64,000 bases of DNA from a virus: positions 19,406 to 83,405 of IMG/VR virus record IMGVR_UViG_3300044617_002200; one strand, 5' to 3'. Made by a program: the position numbers and the translations under genes. Each line of letters starts with the position of its first letter. Position 1 is the stretch's first letter. Positions 46,868 to 60,900 of this stretch are shown here, in pieces. The notes under the pieces were generated by a model, which saw only the letters and a program-made list of their open reading frames with translations, was not told the origin of the DNA and made no database searches.

Positions 46868-47144
46868 AATATATATACACCCAAACTATTATGAATATAC
46901 ATTGCTATTTTAAATATGATAAAACTAAGATATATTAGTTCATAAGGTTTAGCGAGGTTAAATTAAATTAATAAAATAAAAATATCCTGAGATTGAAATT
47001 AGACCCTCCCGGCAACTCTTTTATAAAAGTCAAGTAAAAAATTTTCAAAAATAGGGGGGGGTTGGCATGATTCTTGCTCTAAAAAAAATACAATCGCACG
47101 AAAATAGTTGTTGTGTTTTTGGCGATCTGTGATACATTAAAACC
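46868..47144. promoter_or_regulatory. Divergent control region between late and accessory blocks
   Basis: A 277-bp gap with no gene. The left half is AT-rich with a GGGTGTATATA motif 10 nt upstream of the minus-strand gene. The right half has a G8 run at about 47054-47061 followed by a sigma-54-like box (47062-47078, TTGGCATG-N4-TTGCT), an A-tract, and a sigma-70-like leaderless promoter (TTGTGT 47111-47116, TACATT 47133-47138). It separates the two differently organised halves of the window. Confidence 0.55.
47111..47138 (+). promoter_or_regulatory. Leaderless-type promoter for 47145 gene
   Basis: TTGTGT, 16-nt spacer ending TGTGA, TACATT, then 6 nt and ATG. No ribosome site fits between the predicted start of transcription and the ATG. 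Confidence 0.6.
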
Positions 47145-47312
47145 ATGAACAACGAACCAACCAAAGAACAGAAAGACGAAATCGCGAAAGCTCTCATGCA
47201 ACGCGCCAGCATGGGCAAACGCTCCGGCTGGGGCTACGCAATCAAGTGGTTCGCCGCTTGGGAAAAGAATTTCTGGGAAAAAGAAAATCAAAAAAAATCC
47301 TTGCAATCCTAA
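47145..47312 (+). CDS. Small accessory protein (55 aa)
   Basis: 55 residues, helical, rich in Lys/Glu and Trp (SGWGYAIKWFAAWEKNFWEKE). First gene of the accessory block, expressed from the leaderless promoter. No family recognised; the size and Trp pattern suggest a host-interacting peptide. Confidence 0.55.
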   Translation: MNNEPTKEQKDEIAKALMQRASMGKRSGWGYAIKWFAAWEKNFWEKENQKKSLQS

Positions 47313-47335
47313 TCTGAATCTATAAAATAAACACC

Positions 47336-47563
47336 ATGCAAATCAAATCCACAATCGAGTTCAACGCCACCCGTTCCGTGTCTGCTAGCGGCAACACCGA
47401 ATGGTGGAAATTCACCATCACCGCGAACCGCTCGCTTTCCAAGGCGTCAGTCGAACACATCTGTCAAATCCACGGATGCTTCGGCCAGTCATTCAGCTAC
47501 AACGAAAACAAAGACAATGGCATCTTTACCTACTCTGGTGAAGCCACTTGCTACTGCGACTAA
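47336..47563 (+). CDS. Small protein family A, copy 1
   Basis: 75 residues with conserved pattern TxSVSxSGNTEWWKFTITANRSLSK, EHICQIHGCFGQSFSY and the terminal FTYSGEATCYCD. Cys and His residues (two close to the C-terminus, CIxHGC in the middle) could bind a metal. Nearly the same protein is encoded at 48255-48482. Function unknown. Confidence 0.65.
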   Translation: MQIKSTIEFNATRSVSASGNTEWWKFTITANRSLSKASVEHICQIHGCFGQSFSYNENKDNGIFTYSGEATCYCD

Positions 47564-47574
47564 GGAATAAAAAT

Positions 47575-47784
47575 ATGTATTGTCCTCATAATGAACATGA
47601 TGAAGTCTTCGACAAAGTCGAAGGAGGTTGGTTCCATGTTAGCCACTATGAACTGAGCAAAAACAAATATCGCTATGTGTATGCAGGCGATACTTTTACA
47701 AGCCCCAAAACGGGTAAGAAGTGGCAATACTACCGGAAAGGAAATGAGCTTAAAGTTCGTCCTTTCAAGGAGTTAGCTAGTTAA
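47575..47784 (+). CDS. Small protein family B, copy 1
   Basis: 69 residues from ATG 47575 (MYCPHNEHDEVFDK...), chosen because AGGAATAAAAAT precedes it. A longer in-frame start at 47548 overlaps the previous gene. The pattern F-x-H-x-x-Y/F-L-S-K, then YVYAGDTFTSPKTGKKWQYYRKGNEL is shared with the protein at 50406-50648. Predicted small beta-barrel. Function unknown. Confidence 0.65.
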   Translation: MYCPHNEHDEVFDKVEGGWFHVSHYELSKNKYRYVYAGDTFTSPKTGKKWQYYRKGNELKVRPFKELAS

Positions 47785-47814
47785 ATAAAAAACTCCTCAT
47801 AAGTAACTCAAACA

Positions 47815-47859
47815 CAATGAGTTGCGCAAGGCCGCCCCCCCGCCGGTTGCAAGTTGTTG
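47815..47859. repeat. C-rich hairpin repeat 1
   Basis: Arms GAGTTGC and GCAAGTT around a core GGCCGCCCCCCC; one of 12 copies in intergenic gaps. Confidence 0.75.
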
Positions 47860-47986
47860 AAAATAAAATAGTTATAATGAAAACACTAGCAGGAATCATG
47901 CCAGCCATACCGAGTATGGTTGCCATATCAAGTATGGTTGGCACGGGAGTTGCTTCAAAAAAAATGCAATCGCACGAAAAAATTTG

Positions 47987-48014
47987 TTGCATTCGAGACG
48001 ATCTGTGATAGATT
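47987..48014 (+). promoter_or_regulatory. Leaderless-type promoter for 48021 gene
   Basis: TTGCAT, 16 nt ending TGTGA, TAGATT, 6 nt, ATG. Confidence 0.6.
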
Positions 48015-48020
48015 AGAACC

Positions 48021-48215
48021 ATGAAAGACACCATAACACTCGACCACGGACACCACATCGCCATCCGCGTTGCTCTCATGCAACACATCCGCACTCAATT
48101 CGGGATTCGTCGCTTGCTCAATAATCGCGAGTCAATCACCGATGCAATCTCGGCCCTTCGTCTCGTCCGCAACTCGGACAAGCTGGAATCCACACCCTAC
48201 TCTTTCAAAAAATAA
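48021..48215 (+). CDS. Small protein family C, copy 1
   Basis: 64 residues, helical and basic (MKDTITLDHGHHIAIRVALM...). The pattern I-A-L/I-x-V-A/S-L-x-x-x-I/V-R ... R-x-S/I-I-x-A/D-x-x-x-x-I/L-x-x-V is shared with the 49185-49382 gene. Expressed from a promoter with no room for a ribosome site. Function unknown. Confidence 0.6.
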   Translation: MKDTITLDHGHHIAIRVALMQHIRTQFGIRRLLNNRESITDAISALRLVRNSDKLESTPYSFKK

Positions 48216-48254
48216 TTCTTGCAATCAATCAATCAACCCACTAATCTCTAAACA

Positions 48255-48482
48255 ATGAACATCAAATCCACAATCCAATTCGACGCCACTCGTTCCGTGT
48301 CCTCTTCGGGAAATACAGAATGGTGGAAATTCACCATCACCGCCAATCGTTCTTTGTCCAAGAACACCATCGAACACATCTGCCAGATTCATGGGTGCTT
48401 CGGTCAGTCTTTCAGCTACACCGATAGCAAAGTCGAAGGCGTGTTTACCTATTCGGGCGAAGCCACTTGCTACTGCGACTAA
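48255..48482 (+). CDS. Small protein family A, copy 2
   Basis: 75 residues, about 80% identical to copy 1 at 47336-47563 (shared GNTEWWKFTITANRSLSK, HICQIHGCFGQSFSY, FTYSGEATCYCD). Start chosen at ATG 48255 to match copy 1. Function unknown. Confidence 0.65.
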   Translation: MNIKSTIQFDATRSVSSSGNTEWWKFTITANRSLSKNTIEHICQIHGCFGQSFSYTDSKVEGVFTYSGEATCYCD

Positions 48483-48483
48483 T

Positions 48484-48552
48484 ATGATCGCCACTATAAT
48501 CTTCGCATTACTAATGCTTTTACTCTTCAGATTGTTAGATTCTAACTACTAA
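48484..48552 (+). CDS. Very small hydrophobic peptide (22 aa)
   Basis: MIATIIFALLMLLLFRLLDSNY: a single membrane-spanning helix followed by a short charged tail, beginning 1 nt after the family A copy and so translationally linked. Could be a real membrane peptide or chance. Confidence 0.3.
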   Translation: MIATIIFALLMLLLFRLLDSNY

Positions 48553-48556
48553 AAAC

Positions 48557-48658
48557 ATGGATAACATCATAAAAACTATAGCCTTCTGCGTGTTTGGGTA
48601 TGCGATGGTAAGCCTCTTCTTTGAGCTTGCCGATTACATAGGCAGGCACGGGCTGTAG
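48557..48658 (+). CDS. Small membrane peptide (33 aa)
   Basis: 33 residues with one hydrophobic segment (IIKTIAFCVFGYAMVSLFF) and a charged end. Directly after another hydrophobic mini-gene and just before module 3. No ribosome site is clear; weak support. Confidence 0.35.
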   Translation: MDNIIKTIAFCVFGYAMVSLFFELADYIGRHGL

Positions 48659-48708
48659 GTTGGCACGATTCTTGCTAGCAAAAATAACTCAAATAAGTTA
48701 CTATAAAC

Positions 48709-48753
48709 CAATGACTTGCAGAGGGCCGCCCCCCGCGCAGTCGTAAGTCTTTG
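48709..48753. repeat. C-rich hairpin repeat 2
   Basis: Arms CAATGACTTGC and (weaker) AAGTCTTTG around core GGGCCGCCCCCCGCGC. Confidence 0.75.
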
Positions 48754-48914
48754 AGAATAAGTTGTTTATACTTGGCACGCTTCTTGCTGTGGTAGGTGGA
48801 AGTGTTAGCAGAAACCATGCCAACCATATCCGATATGGCAACCATACAGCGTATGGCATTACTACCTTGGCACGCTTCTTGCTTCAAAAAAATGCAATCA
48901 CACAAAAAAATTTG

Positions 48915-48943
48915 TTGCGTTCGCGGTGCTTCCGTGGTAGTCT
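48915..48943 (+). promoter_or_regulatory. Leaderless-type promoter for 48950 gene
   Basis: TTGCGT, 17-nt spacer, TAGTCT, 6 nt, ATG. Confidence 0.6.
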
Positions 48944-48949
48944 ATAAAC

Positions 48950-49180
48950 ATGAAAGTGAAAAACACAAAGACCACCGAACTGAAACCCTTCGTCCTCCGC
49001 GCTCAATTCGGGCTGATGCCAGTTGCCATGAAGCGGGTTTACTTGCCTTGCTACCGCAAGGCGACACGCAATCACCCGCAATGGGACGCCGCCGTTGCGG
49101 CCAGCATCTCCGCTCTTGCCGAAGACCTCGGCTTGTCAGCTTCCTTCCGTCCTGCTTTCTATCAAATCAACTCCCTCTAA
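48950..49180 (+). CDS. Small basic accessory protein (76 aa)
   Basis: 76 residues, Lys/Arg-rich N-terminus and a helical C-terminus (WDAAVAASISALAEDLGLS). Leaderless promoter. Family not recognised. Confidence 0.55.
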   Translation: MKVKNTKTTELKPFVLRAQFGLMPVAMKRVYLPCYRKATRNHPQWDAAVAASISALAEDLGLSASFRPAFYQINSL

Positions 49181-49184
49181 TATA

Positions 49185-49382
49185 ATGAAATACAACCTCG
49201 ACTTCAACGAAAAAATTGCATTGCAAGTCTCTCTTATCCGTCAAGTTAGGGAGCTTAATTCTCTCCGCAATACTTGGGTTGTTAGCTCTCGCGCCAGCAT
49301 TCGCGCTGATCTTCGCCGGACAATCTCGATCCTTCGCAAAGTTCAGAAATCTGTAAATGTGCAACTCGAAACTGTTGAATAA
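49185..49382 (+). CDS. Small protein family C, copy 2
   Basis: 65 residues from ATG 49185 (MKYNLDFNEKIALQVSLI...). Shares with 48021-48215 the run V-x-L-I/M-x-x-x-R followed by R-A/E-S-I-x-x-x-x-x-x-I-S-x-L-R/L. Basic, helical. Starts 5 nt after the preceding gene. Confidence 0.55.
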   Translation: MKYNLDFNEKIALQVSLIRQVRELNSLRNTWVVSSRASIRADLRRTISILRKVQKSVNVQLETVE

Positions 49383-49385
49383 CTT

Positions 49386-49556
49386 ATGAACATAACACAA
49401 AAAGAAAAACTGATGCGTAAACTTCATGAAAGCGCGCAATGTTTTGCAAACAAAGCACATAAAGCAGATAGAAATGGTAAAATGGTATCTTCTTTTATAA
49501 ATCTCAATCTTTATAATCTGTGCTATAATCTTAGAGACATAATCCGTTCAAAATAA
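49386..49556 (+). CDS. Small protein family D, copy 1
   Basis: 56 residues (MNITQKEKLMRKLHESAQCF...), ending INLNLYNLCYNLRDIIRSK. The block F-x-N-x-x-H-x-A-D-R followed by INxxLYNLCYNLRxxIR is nearly repeated in 51231-51386. Helical, basic. Function unknown. Confidence 0.55.
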   Translation: MNITQKEKLMRKLHESAQCFANKAHKADRNGKMVSSFINLNLYNLCYNLRDIIRSK

Positions 49557-49569
49557 ACAATATAAAAAT

Positions 49570-49779
49570 ATGACAAAAATACTAAAAGCAATAGTGCCGG
49601 CAACAAAAAACCAAGGAAGTTGTTGCATTCTAGGAACTTGTAGTTTTTTTGAAACATACAAGCAAAATGTCCTGTGGCAATATAACAAGATGAGAGAACA
49701 TGATGGTTTTCCGCCTGTAATGAGGATGCCGTCTGGGACAAAATACGCATACAAACCATACTTGGGGGTAATTGTATAA
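49570..49779 (+). CDS. Small Cys-containing protein (69 aa)
   Basis: 69 residues with a CCILGTC cluster and a beta-rich end (MPSGTKYAYKPYLGVIV). ATG 49570 lies 13 nt after the previous stop. Family not recognised. Confidence 0.5.
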   Translation: MTKILKAIVPATKNQGSCCILGTCSFFETYKQNVLWQYNKMREHDGFPPVMRMPSGTKYAYKPYLGVIV

Positions 49780-49829
49780 TGATTTTTGTAATTGCTTCTA
49801 TCGTAGGTGTTTACCTAATGAGTAAATGA
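49779..49829 (+). CDS. Mini-ORF, hydrophobic (16 aa)
   Basis: MIFVIASIVGVYLMSK: overlaps the last base of the previous gene and is entirely hydrophobic apart from its end. Too short to judge; recorded because hydrophobic mini-genes recur in this region. Confidence 0.2.
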   Translation: MIFVIASIVGVYLMSK

Positions 49830-49849
49830 ACATAAACCCCTCTACAACA

Positions 49850-49893
49850 ACAACTTGCAGAGGGCCGCCCCCCGCGCGATTACAAGTCATTAA
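49850..49893. repeat. C-rich hairpin repeat 3
   Basis: Arms AACTTG and CAAGTC around core GGGCCGCCCCCCGCGC. Confidence 0.7.
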
Positions 49894-50028
49894 AAATAAA
49901 CAACTTATAAAAAATCTGATAGCAGGATTCATGCCAGAGTTGTTGCCATACTAAGTATGTATTGCCATACTCGATATGGTTGGCACGAAAACTGCTTCAA
50001 AAAAAATGCAGCCGGATAAAAATAATTG

Positions 50029-50057
50029 TTGTGTTTCCGATCATCCCGTGATACCTT
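50029..50057 (+). promoter_or_regulatory. Leaderless-type promoter for 50064 gene
   Basis: TTGTGT, 17-nt spacer ending CGTGA, TACCTT, 6 nt, ATG. Confidence 0.6.
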
Positions 50058-50063
50058 TTAACC

Positions 50064-50363
50064 ATGAACAACACGAACACCGAAGCCAGCAACGAAATCC
50101 TCGACTCCGAAATCTCCGCTCTCGCCGCTCATGCACCACAAGAGCAACCTTTCCCCAATGACGACGATTATAGCGACGATTCCTATGGGGTCACTCGCGA
50201 CGACGACACAACTGATGGCGACGATTGTTCGGAGTTCGACGGGGAACCCGAACCACGCGAAGATCACTTCCGCGACGATGTGGACGCTGACGCCGACACT
50301 CTCGCGAGTGCTGGCTACGGCACGGACGAGGACTACGGATACTTCGGGGGCGAAGATTACTAA
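50064..50363 (+). CDS. Strongly acidic accessory protein
   Basis: 99 residues, of which about 40% are Asp or Glu and very few are basic, with repeated DDD, DGD and EPREDHF-type runs. Charge density resembles DNA-mimic proteins that bind nucleases or DNA-binding proteins (Ocr, ArdA types), but there is no sequence match I can cite. Predicted disordered. Leaderless promoter, early-type region. Confidence 0.6.
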   Translation: MNNTNTEASNEILDSEISALAAHAPQEQPFPNDDDYSDDSYGVTRDDDTTDGDDCSEFDGEPEPREDHFRDDVDADADTLASAGYGTDEDYGYFGGEDY

Positions 50364-50405
50364 TCAACTAACTCACTCAACATCAACCAATAACTAATAA
50401 AATAT

Positions 50406-50648
50406 ATGTATTCACCTCATACTGAACACGATCAAGTTTGGGACAAATGGAACAACGAATGGGCGTATGTCAGCCACTTCGAGCTTGAGAAACGCCAAAA
50501 TCGTTTCCGCTTTGTTTACCACGGCGACACTTTCACAAGTTCCAAGACTGGAAAGGTTTGGCAATACTACAAGAAGGGCGACGAACTTGGAGTCCGTCCT
50601 TACAAACCCGCCTCTTCAACCCCTTCTCTTGCAACTACTAATGCTTAA
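50406..50648 (+). CDS. Small protein family B, copy 2
   Basis: 80 residues (MYSPHTEHDQVWDKWNNEW...). Shares with 47575-47784 the run MY-x-P-H-x-E-H-D, VSH-x-E-L, (Y/F)-x-G-D-T-F-T-S-x-K-T-G-K and W-Q-Y-Y-x-K-G. A Ser/Thr/Pro-rich tail is extra. Function unknown. Confidence 0.62.
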   Translation: MYSPHTEHDQVWDKWNNEWAYVSHFELEKRQNRFRFVYHGDTFTSSKTGKVWQYYKKGDELGVRPYKPASSTPSLATTNA

Positions 50649-50652
50649 TAAT

Positions 50653-50799
50653 ATGAAAACAAAACTAATCCATCTACTGTTTGGATCTCCCGAAATTGTT
50701 GGCACGCTTCTTGCTTGCAACATTGCATGGTTCACGCAATCAACTTGGCTGCAACGGCTTGAGCGCAATGGCGAACTCTACAGATACCTTATGAAGTAA
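50653..50799 (+). CDS. Small protein containing a sigma-54-like box in its coding DNA
   Basis: 48 residues (MKTKLIHLLFGSPEIVGTLLACN...), with a hydrophobic first half and a basic second half. A complete TTGGCACG-N4-TTGCT box lies inside the gene (50699-50715) and encodes VGTLLAC, so coding and regulatory use overlap. Confidence in the gene is moderate, as the box could have created part of the frame. Confidence 0.4.
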   Translation: MKTKLIHLLFGSPEIVGTLLACNIAWFTQSTWLQRLERNGELYRYLMK

Positions 50800-50810
50800 A
50801 TCTTTAATAT

Positions 50811-50857
50811 TCAATAACTTACGCAAGCGCGCCCCCCCGTCAGTTGCAAGTCATTGA
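50811..50857. repeat. C-rich hairpin repeat 4
   Basis: Arms TCAATAACTT and AAGTCATTGA around core GCGCGCCCCCCC. Confidence 0.72.
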
Positions 50858-50994
50858 AAACAAAACACTTGACCATCCAAATTGCTAGCAGGATTCATGC
50901 CAAGAATCAAGCCATACGCTATATGGCAAGCCATACTTGGTATGGTTGGCACACTTTTTGCTTCAAAAAAAATTCAACCGCATGAAAATAATCG

Positions 50995-51023
50995 TTGCTT
51001 TTCTGTGAGTCCCGTGATACCTT
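50995..51023 (+). promoter_or_regulatory. Leaderless-type promoter for 51030 gene
   Basis: TTGCTT, 17-nt spacer ending CGTGA, TACCTT, 6 nt, ATG. Confidence 0.6.
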
Positions 51024-51029
51024 TACAGC

Positions 51030-51185
51030 ATGAAAGTTGAAATGATTGAACGCTACGCTGAAGCCTTCCGCAAGTTTGAAGCGGGTGAAATCACCCTCCA
51101 GCAATGGACTGATCTTTGTCTTTTGGTTCTTGAGGAAATTATGAACGAGCACAAGGAAATGTTTGTTCGGTTGAAAAACCGCTAA
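51030..51185 (+). CDS. Small helical protein (51 aa)
   Basis: 51 residues of amphipathic helix (MKVEMIERYAEAFRKFEAGEI...), predicted to form a helical bundle or coiled-coil. No family recognised. It is the first gene after module 5. Confidence 0.55.
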   Translation: MKVEMIERYAEAFRKFEAGEITLQQWTDLCLLVLEEIMNEHKEMFVRLKNR

Positions 51186-52504: not shown

Positions 52505-52690
52505 AATACAATAACTTATGCAAAAGTTAAAGTTTTGAAATTAAAAAACTTATATCGCAAACCGCTTTCGTTCAATTATTTGCGGCTTTCAAGATTCTTA
52601 TTTGTCTATTTAGTATTTTACTATTTCACTATTTGTCGCTCGATTGGCACGGAACTTGCTTGCAAAAAAATAATTTTTTTGTAAAAAAAC

Positions 52691-52726: not shown

Positions 52727-53401
52727 ATGAAACTCCTATCTGCTAACAACACCAAAATCAAAAAAGGCGAGAAACTTGGATGGCGCACTCTCGGGTTGTC
52801 GCTTGCTCCTGCTAATCTGTCCGGCAAACAACTTTGCCCTCATCGCTCTGCTGGCTGTGAAGCGGCTTGCCTCAATACTTCTGGAATGGGGGCTTTCTCG
52901 AATGTTCAAGAGGCACGAATTAAAAAAGCAAAACTGCTGATTGAAAACCGCGCTGTTTTTCTTGCTCAACTCGAAAAAGAGCTTGTCAATCTAAACAAAC
53001 GCGCTGGCAAAGGAAATCAAACCGCCGTGCGTCTTAATGTGCTTTCCGATCTTCCTTGGCATAATTTGATTGACATGGAAAAATTTCCAAACCTCAAATT
53101 TTATGATTACACGCCAAACCCTGCGCGAATGATTCAATTCCTGCGCGGGGAACTTCCTGCAAATTATCACTTGACATTTTCTCGCAAGGAAAGCAATCAA
53201 GCGCAAGTTCAACTAATCTCCAGCATGGGCGGCAATGTAGCCGTTGTTTTTGACAATCTCCCGGAAACCTATCTCGGCAAGCCTGTTATAGATGGAGATG
53301 AAACCGATTTGCGTTTTCTTGACCCTAAAAATGTAGTAATTGGCTTAAAAGCAAAGGGTAAAGCCAAAAAAGATTATTCTGGATTTGTTGTCAAAATCTG
53401 A
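52727..53401 (+). CDS. GP88-like protein with CX5CX3C motif
   Basis: 224 residues. Residues 37-48 (CPHRSAGCEAAC) followed by LNTSG match the Cys-rich motif of phage proteins related to mycobacteriophage gene product 88 and similar DUFs, which may bind a metal or iron-sulfur centre. The C-terminal half is an alpha/beta fold (FPNLKFYDYTPNPARM, LTFSRKES). Function unknown; widespread in phages and mobile elements. Confidence 0.68.
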   Translation: MKLLSANNTKIKKGEKLGWRTLGLSLAPANLSGKQLCPHRSAGCEAACLNTSGMGAFSNVQEARIKKAKLLIENRAVFLAQLEKELVNLNKRAGKGNQTAVRLNVLSDLPWHNLIDMEKFPNLKFYDYTPNPARMIQFLRGELPANYHLTFSRKESNQAQVQLISSMGGNVAVVFDNLPETYLGKPVIDGDETDLRFLDPKNVVIGLKAKGKAKKDYSGFVVKI

Positions 53402-53481: not shown

Positions 53482-53549
53482 TGCGATAAGAAAAAAATAG
53501 TTGGCACGATTCTTGCTTGTGTCTCGCGTTTAAGTAAACCACTAAACGC

Positions 53550-53595
53550 CAACGACTTGCGGCGGGCCGCCTCCCGCGCAAAAGCAAGTTCTTGA
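53550..53595. repeat. C-rich hairpin repeat 6
   Basis: Arms CGACTTGC and GCAAGTTCTTG around core GGGCCGCCTCCCGCGC. Confidence 0.72.
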
Positions 53596-53730
53596 AAGAG
53601 AATGACTTATGTAAAATGCATTAGCAAGAACCATGCCAAGATTCAAACCATATCTAGTATGGCAAGCCATATTGAGTATGGTTGGCACGATACCTGCTAT
53701 AAAAAAAATTCAAAAATAAAAAAATAATTG

Positions 53731-53765: not shown

Positions 53766-53957
53766 ATGCTGAACACAATGACTATTGAACTCGATGATTT
53801 CATCACTCATTCTCATTCAGACGAATTTTCTTCCGAATGGGAGGAACAACAAAAAATTCTGAAAGCCTGTGCCTATGAGGCATGGCTTGACGAACAAGAA
53901 AGAAAATACTGGGAAAATCTTTCGCTAAAAAGTGAAGGTTTCTCTTGCACACACTAA
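53766..53957 (+). CDS. Small acidic helical protein (63 aa)
   Basis: 63 residues (MLNTMTIELDDFITHSHSDE...), acidic with an amphipathic helix (EEQQKILKACAYEAWLDEQE). No family recognised. Leaderless promoter. Confidence 0.55.
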   Translation: MLNTMTIELDDFITHSHSDEFSSEWEEQQKILKACAYEAWLDEQERKYWENLSLKSEGFSCTH

Positions 53958-54527: not shown

Positions 54528-54620
54528 GCTGGCACGATAATTGCTAGGCTGGCGAGTGCGTAGCGCGGACCAGCCTGGCACGCTTTTTGCTTACAGTTTT
54601 TAAAGCAAATGATTGAATAT

Positions 54621-54898: not shown

Positions 54899-54973
54899 GG
54901 GTTGGTAGCTCAATGGTAGAGCAGTGCCCTTTTAAGGCATTGGTTCTGGGTTCGAGTCCCAGTCAACCCACCA
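54899..54973 (+). tRNA. tRNA-Lys(TTT)
   Basis: Standard cloverleaf: acceptor GGGTTGG, anticodon loop CTTTTAA (anticodon TTT), T-arm GGTTCGAGTCC, discriminator A and encoded CCA at 54971-54973. Confidence 0.92.
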
Positions 54974-54974
54974 T

Positions 54975-54991
54975 AGCAAGATTCATGCCAA
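54975..54991 (-). promoter_or_regulatory. Leftward sigma-54-like box after tRNA-Lys
   Basis: Reads TTGGCATGAATCTTGCT on the minus strand, directly next to the tRNA 3' end, so its leftward transcript would be antisense to the tRNA. Confidence 0.4.
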
Positions 54992-55028
54992 TTTTTTTTT
55001 CATAAAAATTATTTTTTGAAAAAATCTA

Positions 55029-55057
55029 TTGACTCGATATTCAAGATAGACTACTAT
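55029..55057 (+). promoter_or_regulatory. Sigma-70 promoter for 55067 gene
   Basis: TTGACT, 17-nt spacer, TACTAT, then 9 nt (including GAGG) and ATG. Confidence 0.6.
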
Positions 55058-55066
55058 GAGGTTGTC

Positions 55067-55315
55067 ATGAAAAACATCATCAATCAAATCAAACTCGCAG
55101 TTGCTGATTCCAAACTTGGTTCATTTATGAATCCCGTGTATGATCTGAAATACTGCCGAGAAGACGGAGTGGTCAAGAATTATTCTACCTCTCGTCCCTT
55201 TGACAAATTTAACGATGGTTTCGTAGCTTATTCTTTCGGAAACGGCATTCGACGCTTTCGTTTTGATCGAATCCTTGACCGCAGGGTGAGAACCTTGTTT
55301 GCAAAAAATGCTTGA
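55067..55315 (+). CDS. WYL-like small phage protein
   Basis: 82 residues from ATG 55067. The C-terminal part (DGVVKNYSTSRPFDK...GNGIRRFRFDRILD) resembles the beta-barrel of WYL-type domains with the typical RxFRxDRI end. WYL domains bind nucleic acids or act as ligand sensors. An in-frame ATG at 55016 lies upstream of the promoter -35, so it is rejected. Confidence 0.52.
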   Translation: MKNIINQIKLAVADSKLGSFMNPVYDLKYCREDGVVKNYSTSRPFDKFNDGFVAYSFGNGIRRFRFDRILDRRVRTLFAKNA

Positions 55316-55344
55316 CCTCGATTGAAAATTTGTGTAAAAAATAG

Positions 55345-55480
55345 TTTGTAGGAGCGGGTTGGTTCCCGATGAACCAATAGGCAGGTGTGTCACTTGCGAA
55401 ACAAAATCGGAAACCTTAAGTCTCTACCAAAGGTAGGAACTCCATAGAGGTTTGACCGCTGAACCAGCAATGCAAATCAG
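55345..55480 (+). ncRNA. Putative structured RNA 1
   Basis: No ORF of note. Strong nested stems: TTGGTTC-5-GAACCAA, GCAGGTG-TGT-CACTTGC, AAACCT...AGGTTT enclosing CTACC/GGTAG, and CCGCTGA...TCAGCGG. Reads as a folded RNA, but the class is not recognised. It does not match tmRNA, RNase P or a group I intron by the motifs I could check. Confidence 0.4.
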
Positions 55481-55511
55481 CGGTAATGATCTTTGAAAAT
55501 TTTAATATATG

Positions 55512-55584
55512 GTCGTCGGCTGAAGTGCAAGCGTCTGATTGGATCACCAGAGGGCACAATAATGCCGAGTTAACACGGCCACCT
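55512..55584 (+). ncRNA. tRNA-like 73-nt element
   Basis: 73 nt whose ends GGTCGTC and GGCCACC pair in 6 of 7 positions, with a TCTG/CAGA stem inside, but no standard T-loop. The size and end pairing look tRNA-like, but it would not be a working tRNA by normal rules. Confidence 0.3.
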
Positions 55585-55592
55585 TTTAGTAT

Positions 55593-55662
55593 GCGATTTA
55601 GCTCAAATAGTAGAGTCCTGCATAGTAGGCAGGAGGCTATCGGTGCAATTCCGATAATCGCA
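55593..55662 (+). tRNA. Degenerate tRNA-like element
   Basis: Acceptor GCGATTT/AATCGC, D-arm with AGCTC/GAG, anticodon stem CCTGC/GCAGG with loop ATAGTAG (would read AGT), T-arm ATCGG-TGCAATT-CCGAT whose loop lacks the standard TTC. No CCA. Probably a decayed or unusual tRNA. Confidence 0.45.
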
Positions 55663-55668
55663 GAAAAG

Positions 55669-55742
55669 TAACTCGTGGTGTAACCGCAAGCATCCTGCGC
55701 ATGAACGCGGGGGTGAGGGTTAAAGTCCCTCCGAGTTATCCA
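55669..55742 (+). tRNA. Unusual tRNA-like element with CCA
   Basis: Acceptor TAACTCG/CGAGTTA, T-arm GAGGG-TTAAAGT-CCCTC and an encoded CCA after a T, but the anticodon arm has a CTGCG/CGCGG stem with a 6-nt loop (or 8 nt with a shifted stem), so the anticodon cannot be read reliably. Confidence 0.4.
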
Positions 55743-55752
55743 ATTTTAGCTT

Positions 55753-55818
55753 GCTAGGGGACAAGAGGCTCCATGCCTCGTCCTGTAAGTGCGTAGCGCG
55801 ACAAAGGCTTACCCTAGC
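55753..55818 (+). ncRNA. Three-way-junction RNA with GTGCGTAGCGCG
   Basis: Outer stem GCTAGGG/CCCTAGC encloses hairpins GAC-AAGAGGC..GCCTC-GTC and GTAAG..CTTAC; the second contains GTGCGTAGCGCG, which also occurs in the 54546-54576 hairpin. A structured RNA of unknown class. Confidence 0.45.
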
Positions 55819-56010
55819 GTGGCTAGTTTTTTTGGTAAATAGAGTAGTAATACCTATTCCGGTGCCTCGAAAGCGGGGCGGTGCTTAATAAGGTGTTTCG
55901 AGAATATACACAGCCGCCTACCATTCATTTTCATAGAAACTAAAAAATAGTTAAAAGAATACTTGATGTATAGTGTAATTTATAGGTATCGCAATTTGCG
56001 ATACCAAAAC
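55819..56010. other. AT-rich spacer with palindrome
   Basis: No gene. A GC-rich short stretch (about 55830-55925, GGTGCC...GGGGCGGTGC) may fold. A perfect palindrome of 10-bp arms, GGTATCGCAA/TTGCGATACC, lies at 55985-56005 just before tRNA-Met. Confidence 0.4.
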
Positions 56011-56086
56011 TGCGATGGGCTAGGCCAGGTGGTCTGATGTGTCTCATAAGCACATAAACTGGGTTCGAGTCCCAGCGTCGCTACCA
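56011..56086 (+). tRNA. tRNA-Met(CAT)
   Basis: Anticodon stem TGTGT/GCACA, loop CTCATAA (anticodon CAT), T-arm GGGTTCGAGTCCC and encoded CCA at 56084-56086. The acceptor stem has one mismatch at its first position. Could also be a CAT-Ile2 type; the modification is not readable. Confidence 0.8.
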
Positions 56087-56169
56087 ATTTGGGGTAAACA
56101 TTAAACCGAGCCGCGACCCAAATACAGGGTGTTTATTCCAGAAGCGTCGCGGGTAAACGCTTCTACTTT
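56087..56169. other. Short structured gap between tRNAs
   Basis: 83 nt with no gene. ATTTGGG pairs with CCCAAAT, and GAAGCGT pairs with ACGCTTC near the end. It may be a leader or processing spacer of the tRNA transcript. Confidence 0.35.
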
Positions 56170-56241
56170 TGAAGTATAGCTCAATGGTAGAGCGGGGCGC
56201 TGTTAACGCCTAGGTTGTAGGTTCGAGTCCTACTACTTCAG
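56170..56241 (+). tRNA. tRNA-Asn(GTT)
   Basis: Acceptor TGAAGTA/TACTTCA, anticodon loop CTGTTAA (GTT), T-arm GTAGGTTCGAGTCCTAC. No encoded CCA. Confidence 0.9.
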
Positions 56242-56251
56242 TATTTATATG

Positions 56252-56323
56252 TGGCTCGTGGTGTAGCGGCTAGCATTACTCACTGTGACTGAGTCGGGAC
56301 GGGTTCAAATCCCGTCGAGCCAA
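56252..56323 (+). tRNA. tRNA-His(GTG)
   Basis: Acceptor TGGCTCG/CGAGCCA, anticodon stem ACTCA/TGAGT with loop CTGTGAC (GTG), T-arm GACGGGTTCAAATCCCGTC. A G lies at position -1. No encoded CCA. Confidence 0.9.
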
Positions 56324-56326
56324 TAC

Positions 56327-56400
56327 GCGGAATTAGTTTAATGGTAGAACTGGACTCTTCCAAAGTCAGGACGAGGGTTCGATTCCCTCATTCCGCACCA
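56327..56400 (+). tRNA. tRNA-Gly(TCC)
   Basis: Acceptor GCGGAAT/ATTCCGC, loop CTTCCAA (TCC), T-arm GAGGGTTCGATTCCCTC, encoded CCA at 56398-56400. One mismatch in the anticodon stem. Confidence 0.9.
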
Positions 56401-56401
56401 T

Positions 56402-56474
56402 ACCGAGATAGCATAATTGGTAGTGCAACAGAATTTGGATCTGTCGGTTGATCGTTCGAGTCGATCTCTCGGTG
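56402..56474 (+). tRNA. tRNA-Gln(TTG)
   Basis: Acceptor ACCGAGA/TCTCGGT, anticodon stem ACAGA/TCTGT with loop ATTTGGA (TTG), T-arm GATCGTTCGAGTCGATC. No encoded CCA. Confidence 0.9.
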
Positions 56475-56486
56475 CTTTTAATTTTT

Positions 56487-56585
56487 GCCGGTGTAGCTCA
56501 GCGGTAGAGCAGCAACCCACTCATGGTGAAGGACCTAATGCCGTGGGATAAAAGCAAGCCGTTGGTTCGAATCCAACCACTGGTT
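56487..56585 (+). tRNA. Anomalous tRNA-like gene, about 99 nt
   Basis: Acceptor GCCGGTG/CACTGGT, normal D-arm GCTC...GAGC and a normal T-arm GTTGGTTCGAATCCAAC, but the region between is about 50 nt and no standard anticodon arm can be drawn. A CCCAC/GTGGG stem would carry a 22-nt loop containing CAT. Either an insertion interrupts a tRNA, or it is a non-canonical tRNA-like RNA; the anticodon is undetermined. Confidence 0.5.
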
Positions 56586-56675: not shown

Positions 56676-56704
56676 TTGACAAAAAAATAAAAATTAATTA
56701 AAAT
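56676..56704 (+). promoter_or_regulatory. Leaderless-type promoter for 56710 gene
   Basis: TTGACA, 17-nt spacer, TAAAAT, 5 nt, ATG: the strongest -35 in the set. Confidence 0.65.
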
Positions 56705-56709
56705 TCGGC

Positions 56710-56844
56710 ATGAAGATTAAAACTTTTTATCTTATTATTAGCACCCCGAAGGTTCAGAAAACCATGCCCAAGCCTTGTCGTCCTATTTCAAAAAAAGGTT
56801 ACTCTCGAAAAATAAAACACAAAAATCTTCTTGCATTGGACTAA
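56710..56844 (+). CDS. Small basic protein (44 aa)
   Basis: 44 residues (MKIKTFYLIISTPKVQKTM...), rich in Lys. Leaderless promoter immediately upstream. No family recognised. The next gene's promoter lies inside its final codons. Confidence 0.5.
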   Translation: MKIKTFYLIISTPKVQKTMPKPCRPISKKGYSRKIKHKNLLALD

Positions 56845-56859
56845 AAAATCAGCTATCTT
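56831..56859 (+). promoter_or_regulatory. Leaderless-type promoter for 56867 gene
   Basis: TTGCAT, 17-nt spacer, TATCTT, 7 nt, ATG; overlaps the end of the previous gene. Confidence 0.6.
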
Positions 56860-56866
56860 AATAAAG

Positions 56867-57556
56867 ATGATCACCACTAACATCACCACGGAAAATATCG
56901 TTGCACCATTTATTCTCGCTCCAGTCGAGAGTTTTTTTGCGTCTATCACCGATTCTGAACGCACTTTTCAAACAGACTACTGGAAGGAAGTTTCTCCAGA
57001 AAATGATTCCGAATGTTTTCGGAGATTTTTGTTTGCGTATTGTAGCGTTCATACTACTTGGGAATCGAATATCAAAGCATACAATCTTATCAAGAATTGG
57101 TGGGAGTGGATCAATCAATGGGATGAATTAGAGAACCGCATCAAACAAAGCGGGGCGGGTCTTTATAGAAATCGTGTTCGTTTCATCAAAGATTTTTGTG
57201 CCAAGTTTTGGGCGAACCCTTGCTTTTATACCAAGCAGACAGAAAACGAATCTTGGACTGATTTTCGCAATCGCATTGAGAAAGCAATTCTCGGTCTTGG
57301 TATGGCAAAATCCAGCTTTGCAATCGAAATGATGTATCCTACAATCGGTCAAGTTTTTTGTGCCGATACTCATATGTTTCAACTCTATGGTTGTAATCAA
57401 ACCAAAGATTCTAAAAAATACCAAGACATCGAGAAACATTGGGTTCGTATGTCTTTCGAGTATGAAATCTCTCCATACATTGCTCGTTGCATTTTCTGGG
57501 ACAGAAAACAAAAGCAAGAAAATTCTCGCTACTGGTCGTATGTTTTGGAAAAATAA
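56867..57556 (+). CDS. Putative helix-hairpin-helix DNA glycosylase-like protein
   Basis: 229 residues from ATG 56867 (MITTNITTENIVAPF...). The core AILGLGMAKSSFAIEMMYPT...VFCADTHMFQLYG is reminiscent of the helix-hairpin-helix and catalytic Asp region of endonuclease III-type glycosylases (G-x-G-x-K-x-S/T-A plus D-T-H). The Gly pattern of the hairpin is weak. Base-excision or nick activity is possible; I am not sure of the family. Confidence 0.5.
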   Translation: MITTNITTENIVAPFILAPVESFFASITDSERTFQTDYWKEVSPENDSECFRRFLFAYCSVHTTWESNIKAYNLIKNWWEWINQWDELENRIKQSGAGLYRNRVRFIKDFCAKFWANPCFYTKQTENESWTDFRNRIEKAILGLGMAKSSFAIEMMYPTIGQVFCADTHMFQLYGCNQTKDSKKYQDIEKHWVRMSFEYEISPYIARCIFWDRKQKQENSRYWSYVLEK

Positions 57557-57559
57557 TCC

Positions 57560-57588
57560 TTGAATTTAAAATCAAAAAAATATATTCT
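57560..57588 (+). promoter_or_regulatory. Leaderless-type promoter for 57595 gene
   Basis: TTGAAT, 17-nt spacer, TATTCT, 6 nt, ATG. Confidence 0.6.
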
Positions 57589-57594
57589 TTCAAT

Positions 57595-57789
57595 ATGATC
57601 ATCACACGCAAATCACCATTCAGCGGTAAAATTAACAAGATGGATATCAATGTCACAGCGGGTCAAATTGTCCGTTGGGAAATGGGAGAGTTGATTCAAA
57701 ATGCCATGCCGAATTTAACCCCATCAGAACGCGAGTTCATTAAAACTGGGATAACTGATGAAGAATGGCAAGCAGCTTGTGGTGAATAA
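57595..57789 (+). CDS. Conserved small protein of unknown function (64 aa)
   Basis: 64 residues. The pattern RKSPFSGKINKMDINVT, QIVRWEMGELIQNAMPNL and SEREFIKTGITDEEWQ resembles a small protein found widely in phages and bacteria, whose function is not known. Start fixed by the promoter spacing. Confidence 0.65.
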   Translation: MIITRKSPFSGKINKMDINVTAGQIVRWEMGELIQNAMPNLTPSEREFIKTGITDEEWQAACGE

Positions 57790-57822
57790 TATAAACAAAC
57801 AAAACAAACAAACAAAAAACAT

Positions 57823-57999
57823 ATGAAAATAATCGAAGGCGCAATCTATAAATATAATGATGAACTCGTCCGCTTGCGTAAGCGAGTCGGAATCATGGCT
57901 GTCTTGTCTCGTCGCAAGAAAGCAGGGTTTATTGGTGTTACTAGCAAGCTTGAAAAGGTCAATAAGAAACAGGTAGCTAAATTTCTAGGACACACATGA
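57823..57999 (+). CDS. Small basic protein (58 aa)
   Basis: 58 residues from ATG 57823 (MKIIEGAIYKYNDELVRLRK...), with short strands and basic patches such as RLRKRVG and SRRKKAGFIG, resembling a small SH3-like nucleic-acid-binding fold. Function unknown. Confidence 0.5.
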   Translation: MKIIEGAIYKYNDELVRLRKRVGIMAVLSRRKKAGFIGVTSKLEKVNKKQVAKFLGHT

Positions 58000-58201
58000 A
58001 ATAAATACTTGAAACTCAAGGCCTTGCGAAAGGCCGCCCCCCCCGCGCGCCGCAAGTCCTTATAAATAAAGGGTTTATAAAATAACCTCTAGCAAGAATC
58101 ATGCCAACTTCTGAAGTCGAAAAATACGGCTTCAAACTTTAATAAAAAAAATCAAAAAAAAATCTTGCCGTGCGTTCAAATCATAGTATGATGAAATCTC
58201 A
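58000..58201 (+). promoter_or_regulatory. Compound regulatory module 9
   Basis: C-rich hairpin (58015-58062), leftward sigma-54-like box (58091-58107), small GAAG-CG...CG-CTTC hairpin, A-tract, then TTGCCG (58165-58170), 16-nt spacer, TATGAT (58187-58192), 9 nt, ATG. No rightward box. Confidence 0.55.
58015..58062. repeat. C-rich hairpin repeat 9
   Basis: Arms CTTGCG and CGCAAG around a core with eight C. Confidence 0.72.
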
Positions 58202-58993
58202 ATGAAAGCACTAAACCTAACACTACATTGCGGCGGCCACTCCGTCGAATCCACCGAAGTTCAACAGGTCGCCACTCCTATGGCTACCGACTCATGGCAT
58301 CCGATTCCTCACTTTTCGCTCATCGAGCGTCTTCGTGAGATTGTTTCTGACGCTGGAATGACAATCACGCAAGAAGCTCATGCCCTTGCTCGTAATGGAC
58401 TCCGCTATTTTGGGCTTTTCCAAGTGGCGGGAATCCCTAACTTCTCTCAAGAAGACAACATTGGAACTGTAATCGGGCTTCGCAATTCCCATGACAAGTC
58501 TTTTCCAGCCGGAATCAACGCGGGGTCTGCTCCGTTCGTTTGTGATAATCTTGCGTTCCATAACGAAATCAAGATTGCTCGTCGTCACACCAAGTTCATC
58601 ATGCGCGATTTACCGACGCTTTTAGCAGGAGCATTTGGTAAGCTGACTACAACTTGGGGCAACAATGCGGCACGAATCGAAGCCTATCAATCGCGTCAGC
58701 TTAATAACCCAGAAGCTCACGATATTCTTGCTAGAGCATATCGTTGCGGTGCAGTAAGTAAGACTCATCTTGCGGATGTGCTTGACCAATGGCATAATCC
58801 AGAACATGAGGAATGGAAACCAGAGCGTAATCTGTGGGGTCTGCATAATGCCTTCACTAATGTCATGCGTGGCAATGTGTTAGCACTACCAAAGCGTAGC
58901 GATGCCCTACATGGTCTGCTCGACCCGCTGGCGGGAGTAAAGTTCGCCAGAGCAGAAGAAGTTGGCGATGAGGCACTTGCCCTCCCTGCTTAA
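58202..58993 (+). CDS. DUF932-like phage protein
   Basis: 263 residues. The block GSAPFVCDNLAFHNEIKIARR, with earlier IGTVIGLRNSHDKSFPAGI, fits the DUF932 family found in many phages and plasmids. The function of the family is not known. The promoter upstream has a 9-nt leader. It ends in an early-block terminator at 59010. Confidence 0.7.
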   Translation: MKALNLTLHCGGHSVESTEVQQVATPMATDSWHPIPHFSLIERLREIVSDAGMTITQEAHALARNGLRYFGLFQVAGIPNFSQEDNIGTVIGLRNSHDKSFPAGINAGSAPFVCDNLAFHNEIKIARRHTKFIMRDLPTLLAGAFGKLTTTWGNNAARIEAYQSRQLNNPEAHDILARAYRCGAVSKTHLADVLDQWHNPEHEEWKPERNLWGLHNAFTNVMRGNVLALPKRSDALHGLLDPLAGVKFARAEEVGDEALALPA

Positions 58994-59009
58994 CCTATAA
59001 GCAATTAAG

Positions 59010-59043
59010 TTTAAGGCTCCAAATCGGAGCCTTAAATTTTTTT
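59010..59043 (+). terminator. Rho-independent terminator
   Basis: Stem TTTAAGGCTCC/GGAGCCTTAAA with 5-nt loop, followed by seven T. Confidence 0.92.
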
Positions 59044-59075
59044 GCGACTAGGTTCTTTTACAAGTCATTTAACAG

Positions 59076-59120
59076 TAATGAGTTGCGTGCGAGCGCCCCC
59101 CGGCCCGCCGCAAGTCTTTG
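59076..59120. repeat. C-rich hairpin repeat 10
   Basis: Arms GAGTTGCG and CGCAAGTC around core GCGCCCCCCGGCCCG. Confidence 0.7.
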
Positions 59121-59190
59121 CTAATCAAGGCGTTATAGCTGATTTTTTTTATTTGACACCGAGTAGAAATAACAATACTTTTATTTCGAT

Positions 59191-59535
59191 ATGTCACCAC
59201 AAGAAATCCAATCAATCGCAGACTTGACCGCTAAATTTTTAGGCTTGACAATTAGACCAAAAGCTATAATCAAAGAAACCAGCAGGGGCTATGCTTGGAC
59301 TGATAAAGGTTGGTTTACAATGCCACAATGGGCGATTGATCATAGCGAAGAATGTGCGATGTATATAATCATCCATGAAATTTGTCATTTTTTGAATGGA
59401 GGGTTAGATCATGGCACGGAATTTGCTTCCGTAGAAGATCGCGCTCTTGAATTTTGGAATTTGAAAATAGAAAGAACAAAAAAAAATGTATATGCAAAGA
59501 AAATAATTTCCAAACGAGGGGTTTTTTCTATTTGA
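59191..59535 (+). CDS. HExxH putative metalloprotease
   Basis: 114 residues. IIIHEICHFLNGGLDHGTEF gives H62-E-x-x-H66 with His74 as possible third ligand, like small SprT/M48-type zincins in phages. No signal peptide. The second HExxH protein of the window; no sequence similarity to 27172-27774 beyond the motif. Function unknown. Confidence 0.68.
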   Translation: MSPQEIQSIADLTAKFLGLTIRPKAIIKETSRGYAWTDKGWFTMPQWAIDHSEECAMYIIIHEICHFLNGGLDHGTEFASVEDRALEFWNLKIERTKKNVYAKKIISKRGVFSI

Positions 59536-59569
59536 CTTCTACCAAAAATAAAATTAAATTTATATTCCT

Positions 59570-59752
59570 ATGCCAAAACTAAAATCCTACAAAATTATTA
59601 GCGATACTGACGGAAACGATTTTTTCAAAGTTTCTGCAAGAGACGAGTGCGATGCCGCGATGGAGGGCTTGGAGCAACTTGGATGGTTTGTTTCTGAATC
59701 TAACTCCGAAGACGAAGAAGAAGACGAAAACCAATATCAATTTAATTTCTAA
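59570..59752 (+). CDS. Small acidic protein (60 aa)
   Basis: 60 residues (MPKLKSYKIISDTDGNDFF...), ending in a Glu/Asp-rich tail. A TTGACT-N17-TAAATT promoter with 9-nt leader precedes it. Family not recognised. Confidence 0.5.
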   Translation: MPKLKSYKIISDTDGNDFFKVSARDECDAAMEGLEQLGWFVSESNSEDEEEDENQYQFNF

Positions 59753-59759
59753 AAAAACA

Positions 59760-59788
59760 TTGACTCAATCATAAAAAAATACTATTCT
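59760..59788 (+). promoter_or_regulatory. Leaderless-type promoter for rIIB-like gene
   Basis: TTGACT, 17-nt spacer, TATTCT, 7 nt, ATG. Confidence 0.6.
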
Positions 59789-59795
59789 AAAAAAG

Positions 59796-60611
59796 ATGAA
59801 AACACTAACTGCCTTTATCAAAACCGACGACTCACTTACCATCGTTATCGACAACACCCCGAAAACGATGTCTGTTAATCACCCCTCTTTCGACGATGCA
59901 ATCTCTGCTCTTGAGAATGGCGACATCGACTTGCTCGACTCTCTTTTCGATGTGAAAAACAAAATCCAAAAAGAGTTTGTTTCTACAAGTTCCCGATTTG
60001 GTGGGGTTGAAATTTGTGATGATGGAACAATCCTCTATAATGGAGAAGTTATCCATAATTACATTGTTGACAAAATCTTCGAGTTCATGGATTGCCGACT
60101 GCCTTTCCAACCTCTTGTCAACTTCTTGGAGAAACTGATGGAGAACCCTTCTAAACGCGCAGTTGATGAACTTTACAAGTTCTTGGAACACAAGCATCTT
60201 CCTATCTGCGAAGATGGTGATTTCCTTGCCTACAAGAGTGTTCGCGAAGATTATATGGATCACCACTCTGGAAAGTTCAGTAATCATGTGGGGTCAGTTC
60301 TTGCGATGCCTCGCAATGCAGTCTGCGACGATGCTGATGTTGGTTGCTCTTATGGTTTCCATGCTGGTAGCTATGAATACGCTTCGACATTCGGCGGAAG
60401 TGGTTCTCGCCTTGTGATTGTCAAGATCAATCCTGCTGATGTTGTTAGTGTTCCGCGTGATTGTAATTGTCAGAAACTCCGCACTTCTCGATATGAAGTT
60501 ATGAAGGATTTCGAGGAAATCTACAATAAGCCTCTGAATACAGAGTTTAAGTCGAAAAACTCTCATAATCAACGAGATAGTAAGGGCAGGTTTGTTGCGA
60601 AAGCAAAATAG
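59796..60611 (+). CDS. rIIB: rIIB-like protein
   Basis: 271 residues. The middle reads as T4 rIIB-type: ENPSKRAVDELYKFLEHK, PICEDGDFLAYKSVREDYMD, HHSGKFSNHVGSVLAMPRN, then CSYGFHAGSYEYAS and VVSVPRDCNCQKLRTSRYEV. T4 rIIA/rIIB act at the membrane in lysis inhibition and in exclusion by lambda Rex. Here it is separated from the rIIA-like gene by a gap of about 290 bp and has its own leaderless promoter and terminator. Confidence 0.82.
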   Translation: MKTLTAFIKTDDSLTIVIDNTPKTMSVNHPSFDDAISALENGDIDLLDSLFDVKNKIQKEFVSTSSRFGGVEICDDGTILYNGEVIHNYIVDKIFEFMDCRLPFQPLVNFLEKLMENPSKRAVDELYKFLEHKHLPICEDGDFLAYKSVREDYMDHHSGKFSNHVGSVLAMPRNAVCDDADVGCSYGFHAGSYEYASTFGGSGSRLVIVKINPADVVSVPRDCNCQKLRTSRYEVMKDFEEIYNKPLNTEFKSKNSHNQRDSKGRFVAKAK

Positions 60612-60657
60612 TTTCAATACCGAGTAAGTATTGAAAGTTGGTTAGTGGTGGGTCAGC

Positions 60658-60696
60658 GGCGGCAAGACTTGTGGTGGGTCTTGCCGCCTTTTTTTT
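60658..60696 (+). terminator. Rho-independent terminator
   Basis: Stem GGCGGCAAGAC/GTCTTGCCGCC followed by eight T. Confidence 0.92.
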
Positions 60697-60728
60697 GTGC
60701 CACAGCTTTTGTTGTAAATTACTCCAAG

Positions 60729-60774
60729 TCAAAGAGTTGCGGCTGCCGCCCCCCCCGCGCTGTGCAAGTTGTTG
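60729..60774. repeat. C-rich hairpin repeat 11
   Basis: Arms GTTGC and GCAAGTTGTTG around core CCGCCCCCCCCGCGC. Confidence 0.72.
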
Positions 60775-60900
60775 ATAATCATGCTTTTATACTAAAACCT
60801 GTAAGCAAGAATCGTGCCATAAAAAAATAAATAAAAATTAAAAAAAAATGCTTGCGCGGTGTTCAAATTATAGTAATATGAGATTTCACCAATACCACAC

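Follow-up and report, generated by a model that had tools for sequence, protein, structure and literature searches.

Arrays of RpoN-like boxes in the accessory region of a phage genome and in other lytic phages: candidate host sigma-54 elements tied to early sigma-70-type promoters

Results

RpoN-like boxes in the accessory region

The DNA studied here is a 64,000-nucleotide stretch of a viral genome (IMG/VR record IMGVR_UViG_3300044617_002200), hereafter the window, which covers bases 19406-83405 of the 83,405-base record and whose accessory region carries short boxes resembling the -24/-12 element of sigma-54 (RpoN) promoters. An earlier note on this DNA had listed 21 such boxes and described about 20 in both orientations; a direct search found 21/21 at their positions, and about 20 copies are intergenic. 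The motif TTGGCAYG-N4-TTGCT, with at most one mismatch, has 20 matches in the window as compared to 0.15 in dinucleotide shuffles (maximum 2). The 83.4-kb record contains 22 copies of the exact core TGGCAYR-N4-YTGC and 0 of the reversed control. All 22 exact cores are confined to window positions 47062-60820; with the exact core searched across the whole record, the leftward structural block is free of boxes, as had been noticed before, and so are the 19.4 kb to the left of the window. Some of the letters first reported needed correction: the box at 47062 stands where it was placed but lacks the CACG spelling and reads TTGGCATG, and those at 47888 and 49921, also correctly placed, have the letters CTGGCATG...CTGCT and fall outside the one-mismatch set. 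The preference of leftward copies for CATG is present in 7 of 8, the exception being 60804 with CACG. One further copy, at 59411 (+), was missing from the earlier list and lies inside an open reading frame (ORF; 59191-59535). The copy at 50699 is likewise intragenic, in a small ORF whose relative in the related stretch L131 carries the same sequence. A near-identity search of the accessory region against INPHARED gave no match.

Cassette organization and box-to-start distance

Five units in this region share a plan consisting of a leftward box, two dyads of the form CCATAY-N3-RTATGG, a rightward box, an A-rich tract, a promoter, and an ATG. The promoter in these units reads TTGNNT-N16/17-TANNNT with the ATG 5-6 bp downstream, which is the leaderless type. 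The dyad occurs ten times in the window, and 10/10 lie within the five divergent-pair units, where a box and its neighbouring dyad either abut or are 8-10 bp apart, close to one turn of the helix. The features between 47062 and 60820 are as follows.

47062-47078, +: RpoN-like box TTGGCATGATTCTTGCT; 67 bp from box end to the ATG at 47145
47111-47147, +: leaderless sigma-70-type promoter TTGTGT..TACATT-N6-ATG of the cassette lead gene 47145-47312
47888-47904, -: RpoN-like box CTGGCATGATTCCTGCT; left partner of 47938
47905-47919: dyad CCATACCGAGTATGG
47923-47937: dyad CCATATCAAGTATGG; adjoins the right box at 47938
47938-47954, +: RpoN-like box TTGGCACGGGAGTTGCT; 67 bp to the ATG at 48021
47987-48023, +: leaderless sigma-70-type promoter of gene 48021-48215
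48660-48676, +: RpoN-like box directed into a GC hairpin at 48709
48772-48788, +: RpoN-like box TTGGCACGCTTCTTGCT
48807-48823, -: RpoN-like box TTGGCATGGTTTCTGCT; left partner of 48867
48824-48838: dyad CCATATCCGATATGG
48842-48856: dyad CCATACAGCGTATGG
48867-48883, +: RpoN-like box; 67 bp to the ATG at 48950
48915-48952, +: leaderless sigma-70-type promoter of gene 48950-49180
49921-49937, -: RpoN-like box CTGGCATGAATCCTGCT
49946-49960: dyad CCATACTAAGTATGT
49965-49979: dyad CCATACTCGATATGG
49980-49996, +: RpoN-like box; 68 bp to the ATG at 50064
50029-50066, +: leaderless sigma-70-type promoter of gene 50064-50363
50887-50903, -: RpoN-like box TTGGCATGAATCCTGCT
50912-50926: dyad CCATACGCTATATGG
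50931-50945: dyad CCATACTTGGTATGG
50946-50962, +: RpoN-like box TTGGCACACTTTTTGCT; 68 bp to the ATG at 51030
50995-51032, +: leaderless sigma-70-type promoter of gene 51030-51185
52644-52660, +: RpoN-like box; 67 bp to the ATG at 52727 (GP88-family gene)
53501-53517, +: RpoN-like box directed into a GC hairpin at 53550
53623-53639, -: RpoN-like box TTGGCATGGTTCTTGCT
53648-53662: dyad CCATATCTAGTATGG
53667-53681: dyad CCATATTGAGTATGG
53682-53698, +: RpoN-like box; 68 bp to the ATG at 53766
54529-54545, +: RpoN-like box CTGGCACGATAATTGCT
54575-54591, +: RpoN-like box directed into a GC hairpin at 54619
54975-54991, -: RpoN-like box 2 bp past tRNA-Lys, directed into the tRNA
58091-58107, -: RpoN-like box directed into a GC hairpin at 58017
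60804-60820, -: RpoN-like box ATGGCACGATTCTTGCT directed into a GC hairpin at 60730

The distance from the end of the rightward box to the start codon of the leaderless type is nearly invariant, being 67, 67, 67, 68, 68, 67, and 68 bp in 7/7 window cassettes (lead genes at 47145, 48021, 48950, 50064, 51030, 52727, and 53766). The GP88-family gene keeps it even though its leader has only 36-52% identity to the other cassette leaders. Equivalent distances in the relatives L009, L131, and L216 are mostly 66-69 bp and reach 74-79 bp in three cases. Some have a tandem second box behind the first, at exactly 33 bp in five cases and at 27 bp in one. Mean pairwise identity among 13 leaders of 66-68 bp from four phages is 51%. 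The cassettes are partly paralogous and therefore not fully independent observations; nevertheless, nothing else points as strongly to a cis mechanism connecting box and start as a distance held within 1-2 bases despite such divergence.

Leaderless promoters (TANNTT-N6-ATG) precede small early genes between 47145 and 53957, where no Shine-Dalgarno-like sequence was seen, and such sigma-70-type starts are a useful clue to the host phylum. Recent small-gene duplicates pair 47336-47563 with 48255-48482 and 47575-47784 with 50406-50648; duplication is how the cassette region grows.

GC-rich inverted repeats and tRNAs

Several boxes are not ordinary promoters. The leftward copies at 47888, 49921, 50887, 53623, 58091, and 60804 aim into GC-rich inverted repeats located at the end of the preceding cassette; the rightward copies at 48660, 53501, and 54575 aim into the same type of repeat from the opposite side. 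This repeat has 12 copies between 47815 and 63302 and is also present in L013, L009, L131, L216, L209, and L211. Its layout at cassette ends is CAAnGACTTGC, a C-rich stretch of about 20 nt, and GCAAGTCATTG, then AAAATAAA..ACTTAT; the loop varies between phages and the arms stay paired, and in L013 a palindrome of the type TAAGTnnnTGAnnATCAACGACTTA comes before it. It is probably a terminator or insulator. We do not count the hairpins as part of the box system, as hairpins are numerous in L013 and in several further contigs that have no box array. An Rfam search returned only tRNAs, which form a cluster at 54899-56585 and 63393-63468 (Lys, Thr, Met, Asn, His, Gly, Gln, and Glu); one of them, at 56487-56585, has an insert and was detected by Rfam alone.

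Occurrence in other phages and in cellular genomes

The divergent-pair pattern was found in 115 IMG/VR stretches, with G+C contents of 0.30-0.63 and up to 34 boxes per locus against 0-2 control matches. The convergent-pair pattern was found in at least 120 stretches, compared to 0 for the reversed pattern. These loci were fetched by pattern and thus pre-selected for a pair, so that the evidence lies in their extra boxes, the control, and the flanks rather than in the pair itself. Cellular genomes totalling 257 Gb yielded 36 convergent pairs, mostly scattered, chance-like matches in high-GC genomes without arrays. We also searched 289 genomes of Verrucomicrobiota for a host and found no dyad-plus-box arrangement and one chance-like hairpin match.

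Named isolates carry the boxes as well. Vibrio phage VpV262 has six at 173-346, between the terminal repeat and the first gene, Vibrio phages D419 and D260 have boxes near the pre-early end, and Pseudomonas phages phiPMW and vB_PpS_SYP (SYP) have intergenic convergent pairs. Exact-core counts against control counts are 9/0 in D260, 9/0 in SYP, 6/0 in phiPMW, 5/0 in D419, 1/0 in T5, and 0/1 in tf. Of the 297 records with any match to a 36-nt consensus of the pair, 291 covered at least 80% of the consensus; nearly all were Vibrio or Pseudomonas phages, mostly near-copies of one Vibrio lineage, whereas the reversed 36-nt control gave mainly chance matches of 17-22 nt. Podovirus contigs (L264, L267, L274, L280, L284, L289, and relatives) have a conserved convergent-pair array with a period of 46-47 bp near a homologue of the VpV262 terminase gene. 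In the relative L012 (IMGVR_UViG_3300023174_000243), whose GP88 is 76% identical and which is box-free, genes are preceded instead by repeated TTCTTGACTTTACCAGAAAT promoters and TTGTAAGATA...TATCTTACAA inverted repeats; from this comparison, regulatory elements are exchanged wholesale between relatives.

Spacing and strand rules

Between convergent neighbours the spacing is almost always 19-22 bp. Divergent spacings cluster near 23, 35, 44, and 55 bp, a periodicity of about 11 bp (R 0.39 as compared to 0.09 in a jittered null) by which the two GG elements tend toward one DNA face. The CACG and CATG spellings also follow orientation, differing between opposite-facing neighbours in 68% and agreeing between same-facing neighbours in 65%. 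This strand rule is above chance within loci (IMG/VR L091-L365); an amino/keto composition skew was considered as its cause and was not supported. Complementarity of the N4 segments across 306 convergent pairs is below random (1.15 vs 1.25, standard deviation 0.05), and selection thus appears to avoid perfect palindromes.

Evidence for recognition by RpoN

The boxes agree with the sigma-54 consensus, as first proposed, in having a -24 GG/-12 GC core at a fixed 10-bp spacing (YTGGCAYR-N4-YTGCW), and 73% of them have the exact core. Flanking positions outside the search pattern carry the same signal: 1,229 distinct clustered boxes prefer M at -5 (0.58), R at -4 (0.64), R at -2 (0.53), Y at -1 (0.78), and W after TGC (0.89), which fits the consensus of 186 RpoN promoters, mrNrYTGGCACG-N4-TTGCWNNw (PMC2725144). 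Isolated boxes from these loci, which presumably arose by chance, have significantly weaker preferences at most positions except -5, and W after TGC falls from 0.86 in clustered to 0.63 in isolated boxes (P about 1e-15). Conservation in an 18-contig family is 0.92 for the core, 0.72 for N4, and 0.80 for spacers, with the core figure somewhat inflated because the boxes themselves define the core.

The earlier note had also suggested looking for an enhancer-binding protein (EBP) gene elsewhere in the phage, and none was found in the record. The sigma-54 activator domain PF00158 was absent from the window record and from 43 other box-rich records (44 in total), and the RpoN DNA-binding domain PF04552 was absent from 34 box-rich phage records; a phage-encoded EBP or RpoN was accordingly set aside. 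A shared phage-encoded binding protein was set aside as well, since a comparison of four isolates, the window record, and four contigs turned up no protein family present in every one of these box phages. The VpV262 ORFG terminase homologue belongs to the largest family shared near the arrays, which reflects podovirus relatedness. With neither a phage EBP or RpoN nor a shared family, a host factor likely recognizes the boxes. Vibrio and Pseudomonas, the hosts of isolates with pairs, have RpoN, and recognition by RpoN is the best-supported step of our interpretation and, judged from sequence, highly probable.

Discussion

Two readings had been put forward for these boxes, namely that the phage uses host RpoN as a regulon-wide switch, or that a phage factor uses a sigma-54-like operator. 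The RpoN component is borne out by consensus, flanks, enrichment, constraint, and the lack of a shared phage protein, the last of which weakens the phage-factor reading. A plain regulon of RpoN promoters is supported only in part, in view of leftward copies that have no gene, a box directed into a tRNA at 54975, the failure to find an EBP in the record, and the rigid 67-68 bp distance; the boxes are not simply promoters. Since an EBP could be supplied by the host, however, promoter function is compatible with the lack of a phage EBP gene.

We favour, with a little less than even confidence, a composite arrangement in which host RpoN elements would wire a poised sigma-54 complex to early sigma-70-type promoters. 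The boxes would bind host sigma-54 in the early or accessory DNA of lytic phages with no RpoN or EBP of their own, and the promoter-proximal rightward box would set RNA polymerase (RNAP)-sigma-54 at a fixed helical position, with the GG at about -80 and the GC at about -68. The footprint of a sigma-54 closed complex extends from about -34 to -5 of its own start. Taken together with the 67-68 bp distance, this would place the sigma-54 complex directly behind a sigma-70 holoenzyme, which is why a composite promoter is favoured; the rigidity of the distance itself suggests composite control over a simple sigma-54 promoter. Such a promoter would combine an ungated sigma-70-type start with a sigma-54 complex poised upstream, which, given an active host EBP, may fire about 55 nt upstream, or else may tune the sigma-70 start. 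Leftward and array copies would dock RNAP-sigma-54 unproductively, and inverted pairs on one DNA face, with the intervening dyads, might assemble a multi-protein complex. From the motif patterns we infer RpoN occupancy, EBP gating, and an effect on transcription.

Several findings weigh against this composite arrangement. Many copies have no gene to drive, and the leftward copies have no gene ahead of them, only hairpins or gene ends. Taken over all loci, the boxes show no preferred direction relative to genes (134 forward and 127 reverse, from naive gene calls). The dyads touch the -24 box, while canonical EBP sites lie 80-200 bp (about 100 bp or more) upstream. Finally, L012 and L013, close relatives by GP88, have no boxes.

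Titration is the main rival to the composite promoter, and both may act together. As a sponge, the decoy arrays would bind scarce RNAP-sigma-54 as the phage genome replicates and shut off the host RpoN regulon (motility, pili, envelope, and stress), for which transcription from the boxes would be unnecessary. In favour of a sponge are the dense, alternating arrays of near-consensus boxes with shared flanks and tightly spaced convergent pairs, the high share of exact cores, the unbiased orientation, the lack of an EBP in 44 records, and the fact that cellular genomes, with the prophages in them, almost lack the convergent pair. Titration requires neither the 67-68 bp geometry nor the divergent phasing of about 11 bp, though; a convergent pair spaced 19-22 bp probably lacks room for two holoenzymes at once, and some phages have only a few boxes. 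We regard the sponge as a possible but unlikely explanation by itself. On a broader scale, we propose tentatively that in many lytic phages, independently in unrelated lineages, arrays of RpoN sites capture host RNAP-sigma-54, whether as a sponge or as a poised composite promoter.

The fixed distance upstream of a sigma-70-type promoter, the inverted pairs, and the dyads adjoining boxes would also suit another phage or host DNA-binding protein, acting as a class I-like regulator from a sigma-54-like operator at about -75. This is improbable, given that the box phages compared have no protein in common and that RpoN-type flanks and the asymmetric -24/-12 spacing recur in unrelated phages over a G+C range of 0.30-0.63. 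Still more doubtful is a role for closed RNAP-sigma-54 complexes in separating early cassettes, as two-way roadblocks or insulators. Window boxes do aim into GC hairpins from either side, one stands at a tRNA end, and isolates such as phiPMW and SYP have convergent pairs between genes, but hairpins occur without boxes in relatives including L013 and L014, and a roadblock would not need a fixed distance to starts. A DNA or RNA hairpin (including a cruciform or attC-like element), recombination site, or chance repeat unrelated to RpoN is largely refuted and very improbable, for although convergent pairs are imperfect inverted repeats in a region with duplicated cassettes, the N4 segments of their arms are not complementary, single boxes exist, and the reversed control is 0.

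Phage use of host sigma-70 is textbook knowledge, and RpoN governs motility, pili, envelope, and the nitrogen response. Arrays of its sites in early DNA would therefore couple infection to the state of the host, or turn off receptors and defences, with DNA as the sole means. If this holds, a phage senses or silences the host sigma-54 regulon without encoding any protein for it, and the clusters of seemingly genuine RpoN sites in this phage and in many unrelated water-borne phages suggest that lytic phages tap or sequester host RpoN, a regulator not known as a phage target. The presence of the pattern in named isolates (VpV262, phiPMW, SYP, and the Vibrio T5-like phages) makes the question directly testable. 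We found no description of RpoN-site arrays in phages in the open-access full-text literature, subscription papers and preprints being outside that search, and their novelty is thus provisional. The phiPMW paper reports sigma-70 promoters only, plus a weak, unrelated motif.

Compared with known systems, the boxes share with canonical sigma-54 promoters the core, the 10-bp GG-GC spacing, the flanks, and, in the rightward copies of the window, an AT-rich stretch after -12. They differ in that no phage EBP and no canonical upstream activator site were found, in their inverted and packed copies, many facing no gene, and in the rigid tie to a sigma-70-type start. As with the host sigma-70 promoters of the T7 left end and T5 pre-early region, the boxes of VpV262 and the Vibrio T5-like phages lie in non-coding DNA that is the first or an early one of the genome, with the addition here of a paired or arrayed sigma-54-type element. 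Class I activator sites (CRP type) are fixed and helix-phased upstream of the -35 at sigma-70 promoters, as the boxes are, but the element here is an RpoN box, predicted to be itself a polymerase binding site. Decoy or titration arrays of transcription factor sites are dense, near-consensus copies without target genes, a description that the phage arrays share, except that some copies are tied to promoters. The RpoN element upstream of PEP-CTERM genes with PrsK/PrsR likewise combines many sigma-54 sites with another motif, in non-coding DNA ahead of short operons, and its site averages 71 nt to the start codon (S.D. 38.5); of its motifs, it is motif 2 that resembles the phage box. It differs from the phage boxes in being chromosomal, before PEP-CTERM genes, in one orientation, and at a variable distance (PMC1569441).

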